From assembly GCA_037783545.1 (NCBI GenBank), contig JBBELK010000001.1, forward strand, positions 2,170,001 through 2,234,000: DNA of 64,000 nucleotides, in the 5' to 3' direction. The notes beneath the pieces were generated by a model, which worked only from the letters and a program-made list of their open reading frames with translations, ran no database searches and had not been told where the DNA came from. Of this stretch, positions 9,701-64,000 are shown one piece after another (the first letter of the stretch is position 1; every line of letters starts with the position of its first letter). A program made the position numbers and the translations under genes. The DNA is from Henricia sp. BOLD:AAB3569 (lineage: Eukaryota; Echinodermata; Asteroidea; Spinulosida; Echinasteridae).

Positions 9701-12700
9701 TGAAGCTCGCCATTTGTGGGCGTGATAGGCGGAGTGGTTGTTGACGTCTCTAAAGACTTATCTGCAAAATAATGAAGACTTTTTAAACCAAGTATAAATG
9801 CAACTGTGTATGCAACTAAGTGTTAAAACTGGTGTGCTAAGCTTACACCATTTTTGTAACAGTGAGTCTTTGCTAAATTCTTGATTTTGTGGAATTCCTC
9901 ACGTGCATGCACTACTTAAAAACATGGCTTGCACACCTTGCAATGGTTCGGGTAGTCCTGTTCACCATTTTGGGTGATGATGGTAGTGGTGTACATGTTT
10001 TTATACTTCTGACTTCAACTGTATATCCCCTTCAGTCACAGGAATTTTGACAGAAAAAGATGTCCCTTTCAACAAATGTACACATGTGATCGAAGGGGAT
10101 ATGCAGGACATACAGTACATGTAAAACAAAGTGGCCATTGGATAGAGAGGCCACATTCTTGGCCACCGATCTGGTCCCAAATGGCATGTTTTATGCTAAT
10201 ATAAAACATGGAGTGGTCCATGTACTGTACAGGTGAGAATGGTTTACATGTTTATGTATGTAAAGGTTTCGCATTCATGTACAATGTGCTACAAGTACTA
10301 TGTACTTTTCAGTGTGTTTTTTTTCTTCCTGGTTAAACACAATAAAAATGACAGTCAACGCTCCTTGGAAAAATTTTCCATGAGAAAAAAAGTGCCAAAA
10401 CATGTACCCAAATACCAATTAAAGCTCCAAAAAGCACTAACATGGACAACCAAAAGCTGATCTGCTACCAAATTTTGTTGTTGAAACAAAAGCAAAGGGA
10501 CTATCCACTGCACCAAACACACATAACATAAATCGATCTACACAATGTAAAATGAGACAAATTAAAGACACTGTAACATCCAAACCACACAAAAATGGAC
10601 AACCGACATACATGTAGATCCCACCAAAGGTACAAAACCAACATTGATCCATTGCACAAATCACTTGTACATGTATGTACTGTATACATGTATAGTATCA
10701 TTTATGCACTGTACAAATCTAAACCAGGCATCAATTAACCCTAACACTCCTCAATCCTCCAAAATCAATATGATTTTACACACCCTAGGGAGTTATGGTT
10801 AAAATCCAATTAAACACACTAGAGATGGACAACCAAGAACAGATCCCACCTCTGCCACTAGGGTAAATGTAAAAAACTGAGAATAGGGGCCGTCCATAAA
10901 GTACGTACGCACGGCGGGGGGGTCCAAGCCAATGCGTACGCAAGCTGAAAATCTCCTTTTAGTAAATCGGGAAAGGATGGACAAGTTGACCATGGCTTCA
11001 GACCTTACATGTAACATATTAGAAAGACCACACATTTTTCTCACGTATGTCACATTTTTCTCACTCCTCAATTTAGGTTTTCCCATTTAATCTGCAGTTA
11101 CTGATGCTTGATGTGTAATTTTTAGTTTAAATTAAGACATCTAGCAAAAATGGGGGGGGGGGGGGGGGGGTCCAAGCCAATGCGTACGCAAGCTGAAAAT
11201 CTCCTTTTAGTAAATCGGGAAAGGATGGACAAGTTGACCATGGCTTCAGACCTTACATGTATACTGTACAAAACATATTAGAAAGACCACACATTTTTCT
11301 CACGTATGTCACATTTTTCTCACTCCTCAATTTAGGTTTTCCCATTTAATCTGCAGTTACTGATGCTTGATGTGTCCTTTTTAGTTTAAATTAAGACATC
11401 TAGCAAAAATTAAGAAATCTCCAAATTTTGTCATTTATTTCAGACTTTAGTTGCGACATGTATGCGAATCTTAAAAGGTATAGTAGTATATATATAGCAA
11501 TATAGTACTGAACCATTTACCAATGCTTACAATATATGCCGAGGTACTAGGTATATGGAATGTGTATGCGTACACGGGGTGGGGGGGGGGGGTGGGGGGG
11601 TGGGGTGGGGGGGGGGGGGGGGGGGGGGGGGGGGGTGGGGGGGGTGGGGGGGGGGTTTGAAGCCACTGCGTACGCCATACGTACAGGGGGGAGGGAGGGT
11701 CTAAAACATCGGCATTTCTTGCGTACATCGTGTACGTACTTTATGGACGGCCCCATACACGTAGAAGCAAACAGAAACCATTTAAGGTTTATAAAGCTAC
11801 ATTGTGTATGCACTGTAAAAAAGGGTATGTACATGTATGCACATTAAAATCCAGAAAGCCACTAAAAAATTGTCAACTATGGTAACAGATCCCACTTCCG
11901 CCACCAAACATTGCCATGGAAGCAAAAACAAACCAAGGACTACATGTATCTATTGCATGTACATACTGAACGAACTAACAGGGCCAGGAATATTAAAATC
12001 CCAAACCACACCTAAATGAACATAATCGATGCAACTTGTTTGCTTGCCCTAAACATCTTAGAGTCACTCCAAACTGCATGTATTATCTATTTACTTTTGT
12101 AACATTTTGACATCACTAAGTGAGGAGCTTGACAACCAAAAACGTCACATGTACAAAATGTCCAGGTACATGCACCTCTGTTAAAGAAGTGATTAAGATT
12201 AGACTGGACTGCGTACTTGTACATAGTACATCTACATGTACAGTGTAAATGTATGTACGCAAATGTACTGTATATCTCCGCAGTAAAATGCCTAGACTTG
12301 TTTGAAATAGTGCTACAATCTGCCACCAATGGTTAGACTTTTCGACTGTACGTCTGTTCATACGTATGCGGATCTGGTTGGCTTTACCAGACAGCATCAG
12401 GACCTCAGTCCCAGACATTTTAAAAGGACCCACCAAGCCAACACATCCTTCGTTCACCTTAAAGTAACTTAAAATTCACCTGTTACACATGTACCCATAC
12501 TTATTCTGTCACGATAGGTTTGATGTCTGTTGTACTATAATACAAACATTCCAGTTGGCTTTAGCAAATCATTTGTGACATATCAAACTTTGTTATAAAT
12601 GCCAATTCTTTGCATGGCACAAATAACCATACCTGTGTTGTTGAAAGTTCCAACTTGAAGACTATTCAGTCTGCTTCTCCTGCTGGCTGCCTGACTGGCA

Positions 12701-15700
12701 TCCAATGATGACCCATGGTGTTCATCTGGGAAACACGACCTAGACCTCGGTCTGTGGAATGGCTTAAGACTGATGTCAAAATCATTTACACTGGATGATG
12801 ACATTGACGAGACCGATGATGGAGAGTGCCTCTCGGCAGGTGGACCTGCCGCAAGTAAACCGTTACAGGAATAAAACGGCTCTCCATTGGAACACTCTCT
12901 CTCTTTCTTAAAGACAAACTTGGGGCCTTCTGGAAAAGGGCACTTCCTCTTCAACGAGACCGAGTCTCCTTTCTGGGGAACCGTTCGCGTGCTATTCACA
13001 ATCTGCCTTCTAAAATCATTTTTCCCCTGCTTTATGTGGCTTGCATGCTTTGACAAATTTGTTTTACTCTGTGGAGGGGAGGGTTTGCAAAAAGGTCCCT
13101 TCTCTCGCAAGACACGTTCATTAAACTCATCTAGGAGTTTCATACAGTTCCGCAGGTTCTCCACAGGTTCCCAGGTGTCGTCATCGCTGTTATAGTTCTT
13201 CCATTGCACACGGTATTCAAGTTTACCTCTAGCGGTTCTTCGCTGTTTAATAATCTTGGTAACCTTTGTGAAATAAAAAAATAAAAAAATTATTGCAATT
13301 TTCTTAGAATATCTTTTCTTGATCGGAACAGACATTTGTTGAATACAGTGAACTTGAGGATTTTGTCCAGTTGACAAGTGGACCTGCAAAAGGGGGAGGG
13401 GGGGGGGGGTCAAAACATCTCCCTGCTATATAATGTAATTTTGTGTATTGCATTTTGTGTGTGTCCACCTGTCCGAAGCGAGCTGACATAAAAAATCTGA
13501 CGGGCAAAACACCTCCCTGGTGGCAAAACCCCCTCCTGGAAAAATTCCTCGATCCACCCCTGACCTGTTTAACTAAAGTGATTCCTACAAGAATGAAATT
13601 TGACATTTCCTGTTTCTGGGAGAATCTTGTAGGTCTCTTAGAAAACCCACTGTGTGGTAAGAGATGACATCTGGAGCGGTGCAACTCCCAAACAGCTCCA
13701 GAAGAGCAGGAGCTGAGGGAGACATTTCAGGAAGAGTAATGCACCCTACATCAGCAGCTTTTAAAGGGGCTTGTGCAGTCAGCCTTGCCACAAGAGGTGT
13801 TTGTACATGTTACTGACAGATAAAATGTTACATCTATCAGCCTCCCCAATCTGCTGGGTTTCTTTTTTTAACTGTATTTAAAGTTCATTTGTTGGTGTAT
13901 AGCCACCCACCCTTTTCTGTTTTCCCCCAGTAAAAAGAATGGATTTTGAAGAAGTCTCACTTCTTAAGCATCCTTTATTTCCAGTTACAGGTGTCTCTAT
14001 GGGCTAGATCTAATGTCCAATGTCTAATGTACAAGAGAGAAGACTCAGGGAATCATCATATAGTCAGATAACCTCTAGGAGTTGACAATTCCCTGGGCTA
14101 GGTCATGTCTACCACACGGGCTACAGGTAGACTGTTTACCACATGAGTGACAGAAGATGTATGTAAGTATGTAAATCTTGTGCTGTCAGAGAGAGTACCC
14201 AGAAGCATCTTGTATTGTCAGTGCCATGTGTCGCTTCTATTGGCTTGGACATGTCATCAAAGATTCAAATACATCTGGTATTTCCTCTATTCGCCACTTG
14301 CACGGTTGCGCTCAAAAGGAGGCTTTCCTGGCATGCGTCATATTTTACAATAGACGAAAGTCAATGTCAAAGCAACCTACATGGTAACGACGCGAGGGAG
14401 TCATTGTTCATGCAAGGAAAGCCTCGCTGTTTTGCCAATATGGCGGAACCGTGCAAGTGGCGAATTAGTTAGGGACCTAGAAATCTATCTATGGCGGTCC
14501 GTCGTATTCGACTATGACTGATGGTGTCGACGTCCTCGCGACCTCAGATGCGAGATATAACCAATTCTTTTGATGAAACTACATGTACGCTGGCAGCTGG
14601 AGCAATAGTATGGCTTGACTGAAGAACTGAAACTATCCATTGTTTGCTTTGCATGTAGCTGCTGGGATTTGTGGTGGTACTTGGCGGTCCGTGTTTCCTC
14701 AATCTTGTCACGACCTTTACGTACCGGTAGTAGTGCCTGCCATCCCGATCTATTACTAGCAGTAGCTTCCCATGTATCCAGATCAATGTCACATCTATTG
14801 GCCAGGTCATGTCTACCGCATGAAAGAGAGCCAACAGATACCCTGTCTTCTCAGTGCATGGTGCCACTTCTATTGGATAGGTCATGTAGCTACCACATGA
14901 AAGAGCTAGTACATGTACCGGTAGTCCAACAGAAATTCTGTATTGTCAGTGTAAGGTGTCACATTTATTGGCTGAGGTCATGTCTACCGCATGACAGAGA
15001 ACAAGTAATCCAACAGATACCCTGTATCCTCAGTGCATCCTCACTTTTATTGGCTTTGTCGTGTCTACCACAACATGTAAGTTGTGTGCCAGTTTGTCTC
15101 TTCTAAATGGTTTACATCACATCTACTGCATCAAAGTGAGAAGATCTACAGACATCTAGGTGGCTAGTTCATATCTACATGTACCACATGAACAATTAAG
15201 AGAAGACCCAAAAATATCTCTTAGTTGCCAGGTGCAGGCCAGTGGCCGGCTGGTTGCCCGATCAGAGGGTTTGTTTGCCAAAGAAGTGGACCAATTCCCC
15301 ATTTGCAAGGACTGTGATCTCTTCAATTGGTTATAATTCTTGTCTCAAAGAGAGGATACTCGAAGACACCCTGTGTTGCCAAATACTCACTAGCAGATGC
15401 CACACCTTTTTGCAAGGATGATGTCACGAGAAGAAGTTAGAATGTCATAGAAAGAACCAATGATGATGTCATGAATTACAACCAAAAACAGTGTGTTGAC
15501 CTCTTGGAGTTATTTCATACATGCATGTAGGTCAAGTCTGCCACATGAAAGAGAGGAGACTCAAAGAAATCCTGAATAGTCATGACATCATCATGTCTAC
15601 CATGTTTGTCCGGGGTTTGTCAAAGTAGTGGACCAATTTCCCCTTTGCAAGGAACCATGATGTCACGACAAGTTAGGATGTCATTAAAAGAGCCATGGCA

Positions 15701-20314: not shown

Positions 20315-23300
20315 ATGCAACTCCAAGGCTCAATGACAATGGCACTTTCTCAGGTTCGAATGACTTGCCGATTGGCATCAAATGTTTTCAGGTATTAAGA
20401 AACCTTCATTACTTCTATCTAGTTCTTGCCTTCTTTGGCTTGTATTTTATTTTTAATCTCGGAAAGAATTCAATTTAAGGATGGGACGTTTAACCATGGT
20501 TTAACCGGTTAACCGTTTAACCGAAAAAGGATGAAAAACCGGTTTTGCCGAACGTTTAAACGAAACCCAATTTTAAAGAATCTACAATAGTTTTTAGAGG
20601 GTTATTTGTAACCATGAAATTGAAATAATTTTACATGGGGTCGTAGTAAACTTTTGACCATATAGGCCTAAAGGTTCAACGATTATTTTGGGGTCCAGAG
20701 ATATAAGCCAGTTCGGAGTCTCGACTGCGCATGCGTCTCCCGACTTTGATTTGAGATAAACAAAGGCGCACCCTATCCGAATGCACTGTGTTTATCTCAA
20801 ATGACCTTTGACACAATCCCATAGACGTGCATTGCGCGCCCGAGATTCCGAACTGGCTTATTGTGTACATTGCACATGGCATGCATCTAAACTCCTCAAA
20901 AAAAGTTCGGAAAGTCAAGTTTGACTGACGATTTATGTTGCGAAATAATTTTCCTTGAATTTTATATCATTGGAAAGCCCTGTTGTTATTCCTCTTTACG
21001 ATGATGTGTCATTTGTTATGATTAAGCAATTGGGGGATGTGCAGCACAGCTGAATACGGGCATGACGGGCATGACGGGGGCGGGTGTAAAGTAAAATGTC
21101 ACAAAATGCATTGCTATTGTCAAAAAGTGCATTGACACATTCCTCACGTGCTTGCAGTACCGCTTGTGGGGTACCGTGGCCGAGCGGTTTGGGTCATTGA
21201 CTCGCAGTCACAGGAGAAAACTTGGGGTTGCGGGTTCCAATCCGGCTGCGGTACCTGCAGCCGATTTCACGAAAGAGTGCGCAGCTTGCGCAACTTTTGC
21301 AAAATGGCGCAAGCCCCATAGCTGTAGAGCAAGGGGATTCCCCGGTGTCTCTGGCCATTTCTAATTCTAATTCTTCATAGGTTTCCTCACGCTTGTGAGT
21401 AGTCAGTGAGCTTTTCTTTCATAAAGTGGATTGTTGTCATTTTGCCTCGAAATTTGAATCACACCCAAAAATGTCCTCCTACATGTAGTTGTGTCCTACA
21501 GTGGTTTGAGATGTCCATGATTGGAAAATGATTCAAAAAAAGACTTACAGAACCGTTTTTGAAGCCAAAATTTCCTCTTGCGTGGAATCCGGACGAGGAT
21601 TTTCTTCGTAACTGTAAATTCTGGACACTAGAGGGCGCTGTTACGAACTAGTGGCTTTGGCTATGGCTTTGCTGTTGCCATGGGCAGACAATAAAGGTCC
21701 TTAGAAACAGCATAGTAACAGCATGGCCATAGCCAAAGCCACTAATTCAGAATTTACAGTTACGAAGAAAATCATCGTCCGAATTCCACGCAAGAGGAAA
21801 TTTTGGCTTTAAAACGGTTCTGTAAGTCTTTTTTAAAATCATTTTCCAATCATAGACATCTCAAACCACTGTAGGACACAACTAGGAGGAAATTTTTGGG
21901 TGTGATTCTAATTTCGAGGCAGAATGACAACAATCCACTTTATGAAAGGGGTTCAGAATCATTCTGTCTAGCTTGTGAGTGACTATTGAGCACTATTGAG
22001 GAATCCTTGGTATATGAGTACCAGAAAGAAATAATAATAATAATAATAATAAAACATAGCTTGCACACCTTGCAATGGTTCGGGTAGTCCTGTTTACTAT
22101 TTTGGGTGATGATGGTAGTGGTGTACATGTATGTAAACTTCTGACTTCAACTGTACATGTATGTGAAGAACCAAACAAGTTTAGCACAAGCTCTCAGATA
22201 CCGGCTAGTTTTTCAACATTATTTTTGAATTGATGAGCATGGCTAAAGTTTGAGAAAAAGGTCAAGAGGTACTGTGGCATTTTAGAGTGACCTATTTTTG
22301 GAGTTAGCTACATGTATTTCGCAAATTTCAGCCTTTTCATGGGGCAAAGCTCATCTGCTAATAATAACTTGCCAAAATGTACAAAGTTCATTACATGTAC
22401 TACATGTACCGGTATAAATGTTCAGTGTATTAGTATGTAGACACGGTGTTGGCTGCAAATGCAGAAAAGCAATTGACATTGTTTCAGTTATACTTATAGG
22501 TGAGTTCCTTGTTTTGTTTTAGATGTAGCTTGTAAACAGTGAAACTGAAAAGCCCTGGTGGTTATTTTATGGTACTTAAAGCCTGTGTAAAGGATTTGTG
22601 ATTGCTTAACATTTTATTCAACCATTTTACCACAAAAAAGCTCTTACTCAAATGGAAGTGTCCAATGCAATGATTCTGCCCAAGATGATAACTTGTTATA
22701 AGAAAATTATATTTTAATATGAATTTATATAAATGTGTGCAGGCACACTTTTTTTTAAAGTGCCTCATTTGAAAAAAAAATACACCCCTGACTACCAAGG
22801 TATTATGGCCCCATTGTGTAGTGTATTAAACCATGAAACCAATATACATAACAGGCCTCGAAATTCATTTTCAAAAGGGCACAGCAATTTTCTCTTAGTA
22901 AAGTGCACCTAAATGAGGAAATGGAAAATTTGTGTTAGAACTTTTTAAGGGCAACACAGCAAAAGCATAGGGCACCGATTTTCCCCATGGGTGTTGAGAT
23001 TTTGATAAAATATTATGTCATATTTTTCTCAGGATTACCATTCTGAAATTTTGCGTTCTCAGTCTGTATATTTTTTAGGATATTGTCAAAAAACCACCGA
23101 TGTTTTGTAAACTAATTTATCCGATTACATGAAGCTTTGCAGTGATTACACCAACCTTTATGCGAAATTGGGGATTGCAAATTTTCCGTTTTCTTCCCAT
23201 GGATAGTATTTTGGGGAGGTATTTTATATGATTGTTAGGTTAAAACGAAATTCATTTTTAGAAAAATGTGGACACGCTCCTAATCCCCAATTAAGTTACC

Positions 23301-38133: not shown

Positions 38134-38592
38134 AAACTCAAAAAATGTTCGGAAACTCAAGTTTCACTGACAATTTCTCTCTTGTTACCAACTCATTTTC
38201 CTTGAAAGCCCTGTTATTCCTCTTTACAACGATGTGCCATTTGTTATGATTAACCAATGGGGGCGGGGAGAGATGTGCAGCACAGTTGAATATGGGGCTG
38301 GGTTTAAATTGAAATATCACAAAATTCACTGCTATTGTCATACAGTGCATTACCCTTTTGCTTGGGGGATGGGAATGTGTCAATACACTTTTTGACAACA
38401 GCAGTGCATTTTGTGACATTTCACTTTTTACACCCACCCCCGTATTCAGCTGTGCTGTACATCACCCCCATTGCTTAATCATAACAGATTATACATTATT
38501 GTAAAGAGGAATAACAGGGCTTTCCAATGATACCAAATTCAAGGAAAATTTGTCAGTCAAACGTGAGTTTCCAAACCGTTTTTGAGGAGTTT
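38134..38592. mobile_element. Full-length foldback, AAACTCCTCAAAAA family
   Basis: Two arms of about 200 bases (38134-38350 and about 38370-38592) mirror each other: AATGTTCGGAAACTCAAGTTT against GAGTTTCCAAACCGTTTTTG in diverged form, and GTTATTCCTCTTTACAACGA against GTAAAGAGGAATAACAGG closely. A single-arm copy lies at 20888-21140. Non-coding. Confidence 0.75.
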
Positions 38593-38705
38593 ATTTGTGG
38601 CACAAACAAATTATTGCTAAGATTATGACATTGATGTATCATTTACGAACATTTTGGTAACACACATTACACAAAGAAAATGGCGTGCTTTTCGTAATGA
38701 CTAAA

Positions 38706-45900: not shown

Positions 45901-48625
45901 AAAATGGTTTGTGTGTTTTGGTGTCGTGATGAGTTTACCAGATCTACTTGCAAACACTGTTGATGTTGGTTTTTGCTTAGGAATGCACGCGAATTTAAAT
46001 TTAGGGGATAGCCTGCCGTATTACCGTGGCCGAGTGGTTTGGGTCATTGACTTGCAATCATAGGTGAAAACTTGGGGTTGCGGGTTCGAACCTCCCCCCG
46101 GCTGCGGTATACCTGTGCCCTTGATCAAGGCACTCAACCACACTTGCTCCATCCTTCGGAAGGGATGTAGAGCCGTTGGTCCCGTGTGTAACGGTAACGC
46201 ACTTTAAAGATCCAAGAGCATTCTTTCGTGAAGAGCAAGGGGATTCCCCGGTGTCTCTGACCATTTCTAATTATTCATGGGGTTTCCTCACGCTTGCGAG
46301 TGACAGTGCAATGGGCACTTTTGAGGAATCCTGGGTATGAATACCAGAAAGAAATAATAATATTAATACGAATAATAATTTTTCAGTGAGAGATAAAAAA
46401 GAGAAGTACAAAGACAAGGGGTATTCTCTCACTTTGAAGAAACATGCCTTAGAAACGAAGGACATCGTCTTAAACAGGTGCAACTCGTACGTTATTGAGA
46501 ACAACTTGAGAAAGTTGTATTAAGAACAACTTGAGAAATGTGACCCACTGAAAAGTGGATACGAACTTCTCCATGCATGCGTGTGGGGGTTCCCCTACAT
46601 TTAAAACTGCATGAGCATTTCTTTATCTTCTCTTACGAATCTTCAAAACACGTCGACACGAGCCAACATCTGTTGATCATCTAGGACCGACATTTGTCTG
46701 AAAATGTCGGATGGTGCTGACGCCACTCCAGACAACGTCCAACATCATCTGACAAGTGACAAGTTGGGCCATGTATATAGCTATCGCCCAACTTTGTTGA
46801 AGCTTGTTGGGTGAAATGGACCAATAGTGGAGTAGAACGCATGTCATGTAAAGGCAACAGCCAGCCGCAGTTGAGATATTTTGGATCGTGTTGGGTCGTG
46901 TTGACGACCGCATCCACGCAACGCCCAATAATTTCCAACTTTTTGTTGGTCCTTGTTGGTCGACAGATGTTGGCTCGTGTAGACGGGCCTTTTAAATATG
47001 AGCTAGGGAGTCTTTTGAGGAATCCTTGCTTACTGTAAACATGTCAATTTTTTGGCAGGACAACATGTCGGTCCAGTTTGATTGTTTACTAAATTTTTAG
47101 AGATGATGACCCAGGGACCGCCGGGGTGAAGTAATTCCATACAGGTGAAAACAGATACCCATGGGTTTGGATGGGGAATCTGCAGGACGCAGTGAAAAAT
47201 TCCGGTGATACAACTTCTCTTTCAACAATAACATTTACATTATACGTTTTATTTTGATTCCTACGATGCAGAAAGAGCCTGCAGGCATTCCCAGAGAAAG
47301 ACGGAAAGATGGATACTGTGAAAAGGCCCGCTGAGCTAAATGGCCTCATCAGTCCTCCAAACCTCGTCAAAGGTCATGACCTCCGACTCCAACAACAACC
47401 ACCACAGGAGCCGAAGTTCAAGATCTACGTGTACGATCTCCCAGCTCGCTTCAACACCAACCTGACCGAATGTGTGCAGAACCATTCCGATGGTTGTTAT
47501 AAAATGGGTGAATTTGGAATGGGTCCGGAACTCCGACGTCACGATTACCTCACTTACAGAGACACTGCCCAGATCTCCTTAGAGGTCATAGTTCACGAGA
47601 AGATGCTCAAAAGCCGGTTTAGGACCTTAGATGCAAACAAGGCCGATGCATTTTACATACCTTTTTACGCGGGTTTGGCGTGCACGTGCAGGACAAATAT
47701 GGGCCAGGATTTGACAGAACTTTACGCGGAATTGTGGCGTCATCTCGCGAAAACTTCCCCGTATTTTGGGGACTCCGGAGTGCCCCCAAGACCTCATTTT
47801 ATGACGCTGGGGGAAATAGAGCGCGAGTTCTGGACGAGTGGTTGCCCGTTTCTTCGCGATGCTGAACGGACGCAAGGAATCACGTTTATAGGCGTGGAGG
47901 AAGAGGTAAACGAGGAACTTAAGAAATATTTTAAGAGGACGAGGCGGCGGATGATCGTGGCGCCGTACCCCAGCTACGGTCACTTCGATTCAAGTTATTC
48001 ACAGTCTCTCGGCGTCCAAAAGCAAGCAGAGTATCCCAGTGACGTCAGGAAAACTACGAGGGACGTACGCGTGTTTATGGCAGTCGGGAGCCGGAAGGCA
48101 CACGACTTGCGCGTCATACTGAAACGCCACATGACTGGTACATCACAGCGTTACTCTAAGTTCACGGCCTCTTCCAGTAAGAGTAGACGATACGCCGTCT
48201 GGTATAGCACGCCGGAATGCCGCCGCGATATGCAACTCCCCATAGTAGACTGGATGAGACATTCCGTATTTTGCCTCCAACCTCCGGGCGATTCCCTAAC
48301 GCGAAAAGCCTTCTACGATGCAGTTATGGCAGGCTGCATACCCGTGACTTTCAAACCGAAGAAGTCTTCGGTCAGCGTGGCCTACCCGTTCCAGGATCGC
48401 CTAGACTACCCGCGTTTCTCTGTTAACATCCCGATGGACGACGTGCTTTCGGGATCCGTTCGGGTGTTGGAACGACTCCGAATAATTCCCGAGTCCCGGA
48501 TCGCGAACATGCAGCAGAGGCTCGCCGAAGCAGCGCCCAAGTTGCAGTACTCCTTCCCACCCACGTCTGAAGACAAAGACGCATTTAGTATGATCGTGGG
48601 TGAAATTAAGACAATTGCAGCATAA
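42902..48625 (+). CDS. GT47 exostosin-family glycosyltransferase, type II membrane protein (514 aa, 2 exons)
   Basis: Exons 42902-43092 and 47272-48625. The first ends in phase 2 (CG|GTATGT) and the second starts after ACGATGCAG with one base, restoring an Arg codon. Residues 1-11 are basic (MLRWLRRRWRR), 12-31 form a hydrophobic anchor, then an acidic stem. The GT47 domain begins with KIYVYDLP (114-121) and shows DAFYIPFYAG, and FCLQPPGDSLTRKAFYDA (397 on) leading to AGCIPV, the family's donor-side motif. The wording PPGDS-x-TRK is typical of plant MUR3-like GT47 enzymes and of some marine animal proteins; animal EXT1/2 have a different form there. There is no second (GT64) domain, so it is not a full exostosin. 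Expected place: Golgi lumen, adding a sugar to a glycan. Donor and acceptor are unknown. Confidence 0.9.
43293..43479. mobile_element. MITE, TATAGTGGCCACC family, copy 3 (in GT47 intron)
   Basis: Begins TACAGTGAAACTTGTATATA then GTGGCCACCCTCGG, ends GGTGGCCTTAATAGAAGG then TTTGATTGTA. The interior repeats GGCCACTATAAACAGGTGG twice. 187 bases. Confidence 0.7.
43530..44010 (-). mobile_element. Decayed LINE, C-terminal part of the reverse transcriptase protein
   Basis: On the minus strand one frame gives LETTWTNLLRKLVRNGF-like sequence and then WRFRLTKKDIFRITRTGPIR, IQHLKFIAHITRLPNSALQK and QVLF, with YSRDPWKNY further on. This is the tail of a LINE protein family common in marine invertebrates (QHLKY-x-AHV-x-RL-x-N-x-x-LQKQ-x-LF). 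Parts lie in different frames, so it is an old, frameshifted copy. In the GT47 intron, opposite to the gene. Confidence 0.7.
44476..45470. mobile_element. Split MITE, TAGACCGTATCGAATAGC family
   Basis: The left half (TAGACCGTATCGAATAGCTT ... GGTCAACAATGCAAG, 44476 to about 44526) and a piece at about 45424-45470 (AAGCACAAAATGTGCAACCA then TGCATGTCCTTACGGAACAA) together cover most of the compact element at 26203-26353. About 900 bases, including another MITE (44528-44876), lie between. The right end is not preserved. Confidence 0.5.
44528..44876. mobile_element. MITE, GTCAACATTTTCAC family, copy 3
   Basis: Starts GGGGTCGTCCACGGTTGTCA and ends GTTCAGAACTTTGGACGGCCCC; the interior keeps GAAATGTTGATATTTTATGG and GGAGGGAGGGAGGTCTTGAA as in 1365-1563. 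It contains a TTAATCGATATTAATCGATA tandem. Confidence 0.55.
45471..46017. other. GT47 intron, no feature recognised
   Basis: Open frames on both strands around 45430-45780 (63 and 85 residues) lack familiar motifs. CCATGGAGGAGAGGAGAATC facing GATT/CTCCATGG makes a short local hairpin near 45531-45562. Confidence 0.35.
46018..46379 (+). mobile_element. tRNA-derived SINE (family 1, tail A), complete
   Basis: ACCGTGGCCGAGTGGTTTGG (A box) and TTGCGGGTTCGAACC (B box) form the tRNA head. The body runs CTTGATCAAGGCACTCAACC, CCTTCGGAAGGGATGTAGAG, GGTAACGCACTTTAAAGATC, GAGCAAGGGGATTCCCCGGT; the tail is GAGGAATCCTGGGTATGAAT with an AAT/AATA-rich end. This is the best reference copy in the window. It lies in the GT47 intron in the gene's direction. 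Confidence 0.85.
46652..46987. mobile_element. MITE, ACACGAGCCAACATCTGTTG ends
   Basis: Left ACACGAGCCAACATCTGTTG and right CGACAGATGTTGGCTCGTGT are inverted, and inner GTTGGGC/GCCCAAC motifs recur. About 335 bases, in the GT47 intron. No coding. Confidence 0.7.
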
Positions 48626-49818: not shown

Positions 49819-50044
49819 TAGACTTGCCCAAGTCTGACTTCCCGTGTTTGGTCTGTACTGCGCAGCGTACAGCGCACCCTCTGGACTAGTGGCATGTCAA
49901 ATCTCTTTTCTTGTGTCTCGCAGACCTTCCGAGACAGAAAAAACGGAAGAAAAGAGATTAGACAGGTAACCAGTCCAGAGCAGGGCGCGCTGTACGCTGC
50001 GCATTACAGACCAAACACGGGAAGTCAGACTTTGGCAAGTCTAC
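49819..50044. mobile_element. Foldback element, AGACTTGCCCAAGTCTGACT arms
   Basis: AGACTTGCCCAAGTCTGACTT then CCCGTGTTTGGTCTGTA pair with TACAGACCAAACACGGG then AAGTCAGACTTTGGCAAGTCT; GCGCAGCGTACAGCGC also pairs with GCGCTGTACGCTGCGC. Arms about 90 bases. Non-coding. Confidence 0.8.
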
Positions 50045-52250: not shown

Positions 52251-52535
52251 TTGGTTTTATACTTTCTCTCAGCTCGGCGGGTCATTAACTTTAGGGAGCT
52301 TTACTGGATGTGCCATGACGTCTTGTTCTTTGTACTAAATTTGGATGTAGACACTTTTGGGTGTACATGTACATGTATAGACATCGAGTTTTAGTCTTGG
52401 CTGGTTCTTGTATAAAAAAAAAACGTGCATAAAGAAGATGACTGCATGTGAGCTTTATCGCGCTTTAAGTTCGTGCAAGTGGTTATAAAAAGAAAAAGTA
52501 ATATATTATTGCTACATGTAATTGTAACTAAAGAA
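52251..52535. other. Left flank of the tyrosine-recombinase element
   Basis: Unremarkable AT-rich DNA with a TACATGTACATGTA stretch at about 52364. No feature. Confidence 0.4.
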
Positions 52536-52742
52536 GTTTTATTTCCTGCGGTACGCAGTATAGCAGGAAATCTTTGTCTGTACGATACGCACGAGTTGGA
52601 CGGTTGAGAGGTTTTGCACAATAGAGCTGCTTTGAATAGCATGTGGCCTACAGTAGCAGGAGGGCGTGGTTGTTGGGTTGTAGTGGCATTCTAGCCTGAG
52701 ACCACCAAGCTGCTAGGTCGGTTAATTTCGCGCTGCCCAGAC

Positions 52743-53489
52743 ATGGAGACTACAACAGGTTTGCCGGCTTTGATTCAAAACCAGGTCCAAGAGCACATGC
52801 AAGAAGCCCAGGGGCAATTATTGAGCAAACTAGACGAGCTGATAACCGTTAAGTTGAATTCATTTAATCAACAAATTAACGAAAATCAACGGATGTTAAG
52901 CGAAGTCCAAGTAGCAAAAATAGAGCAAATAGGCAATGATAAATACAAATTTAACAAAAGAGGGAACGAGGAACAACACAAGGCAAACGCAAAGATTCAG
53001 GAGAAACTAAAGGAGGCTGACGCTCTACTGAAAGAAGACACAAGAACCCGTCAGATGACTACTAAAGTCCAGGAGAAGATAGAGGAAGGTATGAAACTCG
53101 TAGAGCAGAGACAGAAACTAATCAAGATAGCGGATAGTTCCGAACTTGGGTGGAGAACCGTCGCCGAGTACCAAGCGAACGCAATTGCTGACGATTCAGA
53201 AGACGAAAAGAAGATTTGGAAAGCGGAGTCACGAGCCCAGAAGAAATACAAAGAGAAGAACAAGAGACTGTTTAATTACAAGTGGCCACACCCATATAGC
53301 CCGAGATGGCAGCAAGGACAGATCAGCGGCGCACCGAAACCAGTTCCGAATGCGAGTCCGACGAATCTCACAGCGAAACCAGGCTTGTGTTTCGCATGCG
53401 GCAAGCCGGGGCACTGGCGAGCGGATTGCAGGAGCCTCCAGAAATCGGGAGAGACGGAACATAAGATAAGTGAAATTGTTAAAAATTAG
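52743..53489 (+). CDS. Gag-like protein of the element (248 aa, CCHC knuckle)
   Basis: Begins 15 bases after repeat A1. The first two thirds are rich in Q, E and K and predicted to be helical and coiled (about residues 10-135). A block GWRTVAEYQANAIADDSEDE follows, of a kind I recall from gag-like proteins of DIRS elements in corals and echinoderms, then a basic stretch, and a CCHC knuckle CFACGKPGHWRADC near residue 217-230. Likely role: binding element RNA. Assignment to the element rests on position between its repeats and on the knuckle. Confidence 0.75.
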   Translation: METTTGLPALIQNQVQEHMQEAQGQLLSKLDELITVKLNSFNQQINENQRMLSEVQVAKIEQIGNDKYKFNKRGNEEQHKANAKIQEKLKEADALLKEDTRTRQMTTKVQEKIEEGMKLVEQRQKLIKIADSSELGWRTVAEYQANAIADDSEDEKKIWKAESRAQKKYKEKNKRLFNYKWPHPYSPRWQQGQISGAPKPVPNASPTNLTAKPGLCFACGKPGHWRADCRSLQKSGETEHKISEIVKN

Positions 53490-54357
53490 AATTAACATTA
53501 AACAAGAATCTGGAGTATGAATTCCTAAATGAGGCATTGGTCCCTAACGGCAATTTTCAGCCTGCGGTACAACGTTTAAAAGAGAAAAGGAAAAGTATGA
53601 ATAATAATAATAATAACAAGAAGCAATTGGGACATTGCGTTCCTTAGAAAGAAGCCTGGAAGGGCAGACCGTGAAACGGTACACAGACATCAAGAATGTC
53701 ATGAAAATCATCCTGGAAGGGAGTAAGAAACATGAATTAGCTATGGAAATAAAACGGGGCATAGCTATGAAAATAAGCGATACCTGCAAGGTAAACAATG
53801 CACAGTTACAGCCAGTAGGGGTTCCGAGGAAACGGGACAAGAAAGCAGACGCTCCGAGTAAGAAATCACGATAGTGCAGTGTCAACAGGAAAATTAACAA
53901 AGCAGTATTTGCGAAATCGGACAAAGATTGGAGTTCTTACAGTCCGTTGTGACAGGTTTGCTTGCCTTGAAAACGGTGTACAAAATTTAATTCCAGATGG
54001 TGGTGCTAAGGCACAGCCGGTATTTAGAACAGCCGTGGGACACGGACCATATTGGTGGGTTCCACCACCCGGGTTCATATGAAAACTGTCGATAAACTCG
54101 TACTTGAAAACATAAAGTATCTCGGTCATACCTCTACGGAAATCGGCGCCATTTTGGCTGAAAGTTCATGGAAACGATAGTTTCAGGAGTTTCCTAAAAG
54201 AAACCAGAGAGCTCGGCCTAGAAGTAATGGAAACAAATAATAGAGAGAGGCAAAGGCAATAACGGAATTTCCGGTAAAAGTAGAAGTAAAATGAAAATGA
54301 TTGCATTGAAACTGACATTCTAATATCTTAATTTCAGATCTAGGACTTAGAAGAGCC
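53490..54357 (+). other. Central part of the element between gag-like and recombinase
   Basis: Holds short open segments, including a lysine-rich one at 53635-53874. None resembles reverse transcriptase, RNase H or a methyltransferase-like domain to my eye. An AAT run lies at about 53599. Confidence 0.5.
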
Positions 54358-55347
54358 GTGCTACAGGATGTAGAAGCCACAGGGACCTCCTCGGAACATC
54401 TTCTTTCACTTGCGGAAAGCATGGCCAATCATCTACTGCAGTCCAAGAGCGACGGAACTGTAACTAAGTACTACGGAGCGTTCAGAAGATGGAAATCCTT
54501 CATCACGTCCGAGGGCGCGGAGGCTTTGCCAGCACAACCCGTGTACGTCGCATTGTATCTAACGTATTTGATAGACTCTGGCAGTTCAGCAGGGGTAGTG
54601 CAATCCGCAGTGTACGGCATAAAATGGGCCCACAAAGTTAGGGGTCTGGCAGATCCTACTACCAATCACTATGTAAATAGTTTGTTAGAATCGGCTAAGC
54701 GGCAAAATAGTAATCCGACTCATAAAAAAGAGATAGTTACCAAAGAGCAATTAATTTCCTTGTGTGAAAAATATTCTACATCGCAAGACATTTTGGTTTT
54801 AAGGGACCTGAGTATTATTATATTATGCTTTGCAGGTTTCATGAGATTCGGTGAGGTCAGTGCACTAAAATGCAAGGACCTGACCTTTTTCGAAGGTTAT
54901 ATGTCGGTTCATATTTCCAAAAGTAAAACGGACCAATACCGTCAGGGAAGTGACGTGGTCATTCATGAAGGGGAAACGAACGCATGTCCAGTATCAATAC
55001 TTAAGAGATTTATAAATAACGCTAATATCGATTTAAGTTCAGATCATTTTCTTTTCAAACCGGCTTACAGTAGTAACGGCAATCGGTTCTTAATTAACAA
55101 AAACAAACCATTAAGTTATACGAGAGCTAGAGAAACGGTAGTAACCAGATTGAGGGAAGTTTGTGGAAATAGCAACATAGGGTTGCATTCCTTGAGGGCA
55201 GGGGGAGCCTCTGCTGCTGCAAGGTCGTCGGTAAATGAACGGTGTTGGAAACGACACGGAAGGTGGAAGAGTGACATGTCTAAAGATGGTTACGTTTCAG
55301 ATTCGTTAGAAAGTAGATTAGACGTAACTAAGCACCTAAACTTATAA
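54358..55347 (+). CDS. Tyrosine recombinase of the element (329 aa)
   Basis: The N-terminal part (about 1-120) resembles a SAM-like core-binding domain. The catalytic part shows the tyrosine-recombinase set in order: R163 in GFMRFGEVSAL, H277 and R280 in LHSLRAGGAS, H300 in KRHGRW, and Y312 in KDGYVSDS. The known role in DIRS elements is integration of a circular DNA copy without a target duplication. It ends 47 bases before repeat B1. Similar stand-alone proteins are often labelled as integrase/recombinase in marine invertebrate gene sets. Confidence 0.9.
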   Translation: MLQDVEATGTSSEHLLSLAESMANHLLQSKSDGTVTKYYGAFRRWKSFITSEGAEALPAQPVYVALYLTYLIDSGSSAGVVQSAVYGIKWAHKVRGLADPTTNHYVNSLLESAKRQNSNPTHKKEIVTKEQLISLCEKYSTSQDILVLRDLSIIILCFAGFMRFGEVSALKCKDLTFFEGYMSVHISKSKTDQYRQGSDVVIHEGETNACPVSILKRFINNANIDLSSDHFLFKPAYSSNGNRFLINKNKPLSYTRARETVVTRLREVCGNSNIGLHSLRAGGASAAARSSVNERCWKRHGRWKSDMSKDGYVSDSLESRLDVTKHLNL

Positions 55348-56044
55348 TTTTTTCGCCTTTTAGATTACACCGGTTAGTCCCGTTCTTTGAAAGTCTAGCC
55401 GGTACGGCAGGCTACTCCCAGTAAACAAGTTTCTGTATCGAGTGGCCAATTGGCGTTTTCAACGCACATCAAGTGTGCAAAAAACAGACGTTTTATTTCC
55501 TGCGGTACGCAGTATAGCAGGAAATCTTTGTCTGTACGATACGCACGAGTTGGACGGTTGAGAGGTTTTGCACAATAGAGCTGCTTTGAATAGCATGTGG
55601 CCTACAGTAGCAGGAGGGCGTGGTTGTTGGGTTGTAGTGGCATTCTAGCCTGAGACCACCAAGCTGCTAGGTCGGTTAATTTTTTGAAATTTGAAATTTT
55701 CTTTTTTTTTGTGTGTGAATGAAAAAGTAAGGAAAAGACGGTTCCTATAATATATTTTGGGTTATTTAGACATCCAGTAATATTAACAAGTTAAGTCCAT
55801 AAGGTTTTCCAGAGTTTTTTCTCCTTGAGTTTTCTCTCTGGTTTTTAACCCTGGGCAGATTGAATCAGCGGAAACAAACGTCATTTAAATATGTATAAAT
55901 TTTAAGTAGATTTGAGGAAAGTGAACAAATGTAAATAAACCAACCGACGCTAGCCGGTACGGCAGGCTACTCCCAGTAAACAAGTTTCTGTATCGAGTGG
56001 CCAATTGGCGTTTTCAACGCACATCAAGTGTGCAAAAAACAGAC

Positions 56045-62911: not shown

Positions 62912-64000
62912 CCAGCTTTTTTGTTTAGTTAGAGCAGGATTGTTTAGTGTTCAGTGACTGCTTTTTTTATAGTTCTGGTTTGTTACTGGTATTGTTTGGG
63001 TATTAACACTGAGTGGCGTTTTGTTATTTTGAAGTGTCCTTTTATTATTTTGATATCCGTTGGCATATTTAGGCGTGTGCCGGCATGCTTTCTTTTTGAC
63101 GCCGTTTGGTGTTAGAAAGGATTTTTGCGTGTTTAACATATTGGCCACTCTCATTTTTTTGGGTGTTTTTAAAGTTGTCTACCGCTCGTAGATTTTCCCA
63201 ATGTTTTAGCATTTGTCTGAACAAAAACTTAGTAGTTTACCCAAAGCGGTATATTTTTCAGTTTCTGAAATATTTGCTTTGGGTAGGTTGGTAGTTGTTC
63301 ACAGGTTGTTTCTCGTTGGGGTTTTTCAGTTTGCGTTCGCATCCATTGCTTTTTTGTCGAAGTTTAATGCTCTCTTAGTTTATTTGAGTTTTGTTTAGCC
63401 TTGACATATGATATATTGGGTACAGTTTTGGTCAAGGTGTTTGTTTCATGTTTTAAATTTAGAGATCTATTTTTTGCGCTTCTTTTGCGCGTTTTCTGCT
63501 TTTAGTTGGTATAAGGGCTGTCGTATCAAGTTGGTGATGTGTCTGTTGTGTATACAGTTAAGTTCAGACACTTTGCTGGCTTGATACGCCCCGTGCGTTT
63601 TGACCACGTCATTGTTGCAGTTAAATGGCCTGGTTGGGCTTTTTTCAGAAACTGAAAAATATACCGCTTTGGGTAAACTACTAAGTTTTTGTTCAGACAA
63701 TTGCTAAAACATTGGGAAAATCTACGAGCGGTAGACAACTTTAAAAACACCCAAAAAAATGAGAGTGGCCAATATGTTAAACACGCAAAAATCCTTTCTA
63801 ACACCAAACGGCGTCAAAAAGAAAGCATGCCGGCACACGCCTAAATATGCCAACGGATATCAAAATAATGAAAGGACACTTCAAAATAACAAAACGCCAC
63901 TCAGTGTTAATACCCAAACAATACCAGTAACAAACGAGAACCATAAAAAGAGCAGTTACTGAACACTAAACAATCCTGCTCTAACTAAACAAAAAAGCTG
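62912..64000. repeat. Large inverted repeat reaching the window end
   Basis: The left arm (62912 to about 63267) and right arm (about 63645 to 64000) are reverse complements at roughly 97 percent identity by eye; the 377-base centre is unique. The left arm starts CAGCTTTTTTGTTTAGTTAG and the window ends on its mirror, so the inverted repeat may continue beyond base 64000. Two peptide readings occur once in each arm: MRVANMLNTQKSFLTPNGVK and MSEQKLSSLPKAVYFSVSE. Neither resembles a known domain. The element class is unknown; long-TIR DNA elements or a head-to-head Penelope-like copy are possible. Confidence 0.7.

Follow-up and report, generated by a model that had tools for sequence, protein, structure and literature searches.

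A young split-repeat element with a gag-like protein and a tyrosine recombinase, probably a non-autonomous Ngaro-type retrotransposon, in Henricia sp.

The 64-kb window of Henricia sp. DNA analysed here (the whole stretch, 64,000 nucleotides) contains a 3.5 kb element on its plus strand (52536-56044) with the split repeats, gag-like protein and tyrosine recombinase (YR) of a retrotransposon but no recognisable reverse transcriptase (RT), which raises the question of how such an element moves. Elements of the Ngaro group follow the plan A1-[ORFs]-B1A2B2, with ORFs for gag, RT/RNase H and YR (PMC8547959, PMC9210276, PMC4157794). At the VCBP locus of amphioxus, a Ngaro-like element has been described that also has split repeats (PMC2632668), and PAT elements likewise have split repeats (PMC4157794); these papers, and those cited below, are drawn on here in excerpt.

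The exact matches between A1 and A2 and between B1 and B2 stop in pairwise comparison at the limits given in Table 1, and the two pairs together show no difference (0/288). A repeat search returns a 197-nt repeat with one mismatch, which corresponds to A1/A2 plus four flanking bases. Exact repeats as long as A and B are not due to chance. The last base of B1 is 55489 and the first of A2 is 55490, so there is no gap between them, and we infer that B1A2 represents a circle junction. The pairwise identity of the A and B repeats (193/193 and 95/95) and the exact abutment of B1 and A2, both seen by eye in the initial annotation, are thus confirmed, and so is the DIRS/Ngaro split-repeat plan that it proposed, since the order A1-[ORFs]-B1A2B2 matches the Ngaro plan in the excerpt of PMC8547959. 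The AATAAA of the spacer starts 16 bases upstream of B2, and the only other AATAAA on the plus strand of the element lies at 53748, in the linker.

Table 1. Features of the split-repeat element (positions in the 64-kb window)
Feature	Position	Strand	Basis or remark
A1, left terminal split direct repeat	52536..52728	+	193/193 identity to A2
ORF1, gag-like, 248 aa, one CCHC zinc knuckle (CFACGKPGHWRADC)	52743..53489	+	zf-CCHC E=6e-6
Linker, site of absent RT and apparently decayed RNase H end	53490..54315	+	three-frame translation
RNase H-like putative remnant, 85-aa open piece (E..., YTD, ...ADAPSK)	53617..53871	+	by eye
Putative remnant of RT/RNase H ORF C-terminal tail, shifted frames	53951..54220	+	four of five patterns, in order
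DRFA...N (DRFACLEN)	53951	+	tail motif in linker
FNSRW	53986	+	tail motif in linker
WWVPP	54053	+	tail motif in linker
SAPFW	54143	+	tail motif in linker
ORF3, tyrosine recombinase (YR)	54316..55347	+	open from 54316, stop at 55347
B1, internal copy of right terminal repeat	55395..55489	+	95/95 identity to B2
A2, internal A1 copy, adjoins B1	55490..55682	+	193/193 identity to A1
AT-rich spacer, 30 % GC	55683..55949	+	AATAAA at 55934
B2, right terminal repeat	55950..56044	+	95/95 identity to B1

No target site duplication was found at the flanks of the element (AACTAAAGAA and TATATGAATC on the left and right, respectively). DIRS1-like elements are marked by inverted terminal repeats with internal complementary regions; here the repeats are direct, and no inverted pair of at least 20 bases (12-base seed) occurs inside the element, which does not fit a DIRS1-like element. 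The three bases AGA occur both in the left flank and at the B ends, which would fit the 3-bp junction rule for DIRS1-like elements (PMC3266345); we did not count this match, since it is too weak and the adjoining base differs (A versus C at 52535). Palindromic recombinase arms at the B1/A2 boundary were also rejected: the best arrangement has 7 of 11 pairs, which is equalled or beaten at 1024 of 2000 random places in the window. The A end and the B1A2 junction region fold somewhat better than shuffled sequences (z of -2.30 and -2.44, respectively), and the B end does not (z of -0.89). At the start of A (52536-52600, z of -2.30), a possible hairpin with an outer stem of nine pairs and an inner stem of four lies beside the element end; it is a possible recombinase signal or RNA end signal.

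ORF1 scores 26.5 bits with the zf-CCHC family, above the Pfam cut-off of 20.8, and its N-terminal part is helical in appearance on inspection. The recombinase carries a Pfam Phage_integrase match (residues 142-321, E=2.2e-8), and a comparison with the PDB at E up to 1 gives 17 distinct sequences, every one of them named Cre or Tre (best E=2.7e-9). None of the PDB alignments extends past residue 247, and the Cre match starts no earlier than residue 42. We therefore identified the catalytic set by eye, from the positions of the motifs FMRFGEV, HSLRAGG, KRHGRW and DGYV, as R177, H291xxR294, H314 and Y326 (residue 1 at 54316). Both the CCHC gag-like protein and the recombinase with a full R-HxxR-H-Y set, as recognised in the initial annotation, are therefore borne out. 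Neither frame contains a stop (none in 744 bases of gag and none in 1029 bases of YR). The first ATG of the YR frame is at 54421 (residue 36), upstream of the Cre match; the frame also has a GTG at 54358, which the ORF lister had chosen as the start. A sequence resembling a 3' splice site (TTAATTTCAG, noted by eye) is present at 54328-54337, ahead of the conserved part of YR, and the RNA that encodes the recombinase may be spliced. A fold prediction for YR without an alignment (pLDDT 36) was of no use.

The linker of 826 bases belongs to neither gag nor YR. Pfam finds no RT domain in the element, linker pieces included, and a comparison of eight linker pieces with Pfam gives one weak unrelated match only (BORCS7, E=0.059). 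The 85-residue open piece of the linker contains a glutamate, the aspartate of YTD 22 residues on and then a stretch ending in VPRKRDKKADAPSK, and reads by eye as RNase H from the first helix onward. No PDB chain matched this piece up to E=10, and its single-sequence fold (helices only, pLDDT 69) gives no support for RNase H. The four motifs DRFA...N, FNSRW, WWVPP and SAPFW follow downstream, and we take them to be characteristic of the C-terminal region in the Ngaro/DIRS RT/RNase H ORF. ADAPSK and DRFAC of the linker resemble ADALSR and DLFAS, which are in print as motifs of DIRS1-like pol and RNase H (PMC2685390); among the tail motifs, DLFAS is the only one for which the excerpted source provides backing.

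Of five tail patterns, the linker contains four, in order, and lacks [CP]GT[AE], the fifth, which has two matches elsewhere in the window. When the linker was shuffled 3000 times with dinucleotides preserved, 2992 shuffles contained none of the four patterns (D[RK]FA...N, FNS[RKLF][FWY], W.VPP and S[AS]P[FW]W) and eight contained one, compared with 4/4 in the linker itself; the patterns were written with the translation already in view, so this control gauges chance, not choice. Six patterns were run over the window, of which [CP]GT[AE] and plain D[RK]FA were omitted from the shuffle control. Outside the linker, the six frames of the 64 kb contain one match to the four patterns, FNSFF on the minus strand; of two matches to plain D[RK]FA, one is inside the linker.

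Codon usage of gag and YR favours frame 1 in 90-base segments starting at 53670-53850 (scores of 3.2 to 7.6) and frame 2 in segments starting at 54120 and 54165 (scores of 3.4 and 6.2), which coincide with the RNase H-like piece and the SAPFW piece, respectively. Since no frame is clearly favoured in segments starting at 53895-54075 (scores of -12.3 to 1.7), DRFA, FNSRW and WWVPP are without codon-usage support. Judged from its sequence, the linker looks like what decay has left of the RNase H end in a Ngaro/DIRS pol ORF. The initial annotation had described the element as having no recognisable RT, and this stands, by the Pfam comparison, for the RT domain itself, but the linker contains what appear to be remnants of that ORF's RNase H end.

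The element has the split direct repeats, with the internal pair downstream of YR, by which Ngaro elements are defined (PMC4157794, PMC8547959), together with a gag-like first ORF and a YR ORF with R, HxxR, H and Y. These split direct repeats, with gag-like ORF first and YR last, are common to it and to the Ngaro elements of Cafeteria burkhardae (PMC8547959) and amphioxus (PMC2632668); in the excerpts of the same two papers, Ngaro elements likewise show no target site duplication, and they have no methyltransferase. A methyltransferase, which distinguishes DIRS and PAT elements from Ngaro, is not seen in the remaining sequence of our element, but its region could have been lost too. Whereas the Ngaro elements have an RT/RNase H ORF (PMC8547959, PMC2632668), here the RT is gone and there is a broken RNase H-like end within 3.5 kb, compared with a typical length of about 6 kb in Cafeteria (PMC8547959). 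Only this broken end represents the RT/RNase H ORF, and we therefore regard the element as a derivative of a Ngaro-type element and not as an autonomous member.

Other reduced elements offer partial parallels. Cafeteria Ngaro type 2b is likewise a deletion derivative that keeps part of the genes, but its deletion of ~2 kb lies over ORF1 (gag), whereas our element keeps gag and has lost RT (PMC8547959). SIRE, the short form of trypanosome VIPER, is likewise a non-autonomous relative of a split-repeat YR retrotransposon; it consists of the A2-B2 part of VIPER only, whereas the present element keeps gag and YR (PMC6681497, PMC12278014). Animal CryptonA elements resemble the Henricia element in its present state in having a YR without RT (PMC3212892), but animal Cryptons are described in that excerpt as lacking terminal repeats, whereas our element has split repeats along with a gag-like ORF and what appear to be pol remnants. 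A Crypton would have YR as its sole enzyme and neither long direct repeats nor genes of a retroelement, which does not agree with the direct repeats of 193 and 95 bases, the gag-like ORF and the apparent pol remnant. Within the narrow literature basis searched, itself seen in excerpt, we did not meet an RT-less Ngaro element that keeps gag and YR, and the excerpts of PMC3783388 and PMC12477816 contain nothing on RT-less forms.

No further copy of the element and no solo repeat was found in the 64-kb window, where matches beyond its own repeats had E of 0.015 or worse in blastn and 2.7 or worse in tblastn. Searches with YR, gag, the remnant and the motif patterns gave no relative in viral contigs or prokaryote genome contigs, and a miss in these collections, which comprise viruses and prokaryotes, says little on animal genomes. 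Two loci (L001 and L002) considered as relatives were rejected; both lie on prokaryote MAG contigs, and gag and YR have no match better than E 0.29. An RT-bearing partner was found neither in the window nor in the viral and prokaryote contig collections. A comparison of the window with Rfam produced nothing that reached the gathering scores.

The window contains several other features. An inverted repeat pair of 358 bases (62913-63270 and 63643-64000; 98 % identical, 372 bases apart) touches the window end and perhaps belongs to a young DNA transposon, truncated there, as its terminal inverted repeats. A unit of ~259 bases is present in two tandem copies, 94 % alike, at 10913-11410. Long self-complementary stretches with arms of 71-82 % identity (21416-21948, 38137-38586, 49819-50043 and 2579-2940) are perhaps foldback or MITE-type elements; the sequence at 20888-21143, near the first of these, is related (77 %) to 38372-38593 in the second. 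An uninterrupted frame of 455 residues at 47258-48625 has an Exostosin GT47 domain (E=2.5e-40) and is a candidate host gene or single-exon copy, and an open frame on the minus strand at 12583-13425 has a chromodomain (E=2.8e-15). Both frames, like the split-repeat element itself, fit an animal origin of the window.

To read 53617-54217 (601 bases) through its five anchored pieces, at least five frame breaks are required, or three if no motif is forced. The probability that all five lesions fall in the remnant is about 6e-4 if they are evenly spread over remnant, repeats, gag and YR. In the replication model for split-repeat retrotransposons, the internal B1A2 is the source from which the ends are renewed in every cycle of reverse transcription. 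If the ends are rebuilt each round, identical repeats date the last move. A related circle model has been described for DIRS1-like elements (PMC3266345). Since the apparent remnant is broken while repeats, gag and YR are clean, this copy most likely made its last move when its RT/RNase H gene was already dead, with RT coming from elsewhere.

We therefore consider the element to be, probably, a young non-autonomous Ngaro-type YR retrotransposon, whose ancestor lost RT and the first half of RNase H and in which the rest of that frame decayed. A deletion in the ancestor would have removed RT and the first half of RNase H, and gag, the recombinase and all repeats would have remained intact while the remaining frame decayed. 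The element RNA would run from within A1 to within B2, and the AATAAA of the spacer fits an RNA end in B2. The RT of an intact relative, acting in trans, would copy this RNA, with the internal B1A2 serving as template to rebuild both ends, so that A1 would equal A2 and B1 would equal B2 after every round. Either the element's recombinase or that of the partner would then insert the resulting double-stranded circle into the target, without a target site duplication.

The single copy in the window is also what would be seen if a complete Ngaro element had inserted whole and then lost its RT on site by deletion and decay, as an ordinary dying copy, and deletions within young insertions are common. 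No single clock running since the insertion, however, accounts for at least five breaks in 601 bases of remnant next to none in 288 bases of repeat, 744 of gag and 1029 of YR, and we regard such a loss on site as unlikely. A decayed middle flanked by clean ends, gag and YR would also be explained by a chimera, in which a template switch of RT between the RNA of an intact element and that of an old dead copy has pasted in the decayed patch. Template switching is usual in retroelements, but there is no direct sign of it here, the window having no second copy that would reveal the switch points, and we hold this origin to be rather improbable. Gene conversion of the repeats could likewise set clean repeats beside a decayed stretch.

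The initial annotation had left two readings side by side, namely a non-autonomous member moved by the RT of a partner and a family, between DIRS elements and Cryptons, that moves as DNA circles by means of its own recombinase. The apparently decayed pol end next to clean gag, YR and repeats favours the former. An RT-free family that excises and inserts such circles would explain why the 3.5 kb lack RT yet have an open YR complete in its catalytic residues, and the CCHC protein could serve in DNA binding. Against this, the linker can be read as what is left of an RT/RNase H frame, which would point to descent from an RT-bearing element, and animal Cryptons are reported without terminal repeats in the excerpt of PMC3212892. 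Furthermore, an internal B1A2 would be useless to an element with YR only, and as a second recombination site would split its circle; without copying by RT, nothing would hold the repeats at 288/288 during decay of the linker. Because RT-dependent replication, unlike a circle with YR only, requires the internal B1A2 that this element has kept identical, the RT-free circle family is disfavoured, and we consider it very improbable. There is also only a slim chance that the lineage has long been RT-less and is still spreading with gag and recombinase under selection, be it as a specialised parasite of a partner's RT or as DNA circles that its own recombinase makes and inserts.

Returning to the preferred reading, the element is real and recently inserted, and most likely a non-autonomous Ngaro-type derivative of an ordinary kind. 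A lone copy would be a deletion derivative of the ordinary sort. Its interest would rise if the form proved to exist as a family of several copies in which gag and YR are conserved; should the 3.5 kb form be present in many copies, it would represent a natural test of which proteins a split-repeat retrotransposon must supply itself (gag and recombinase) and which it can borrow (RT).
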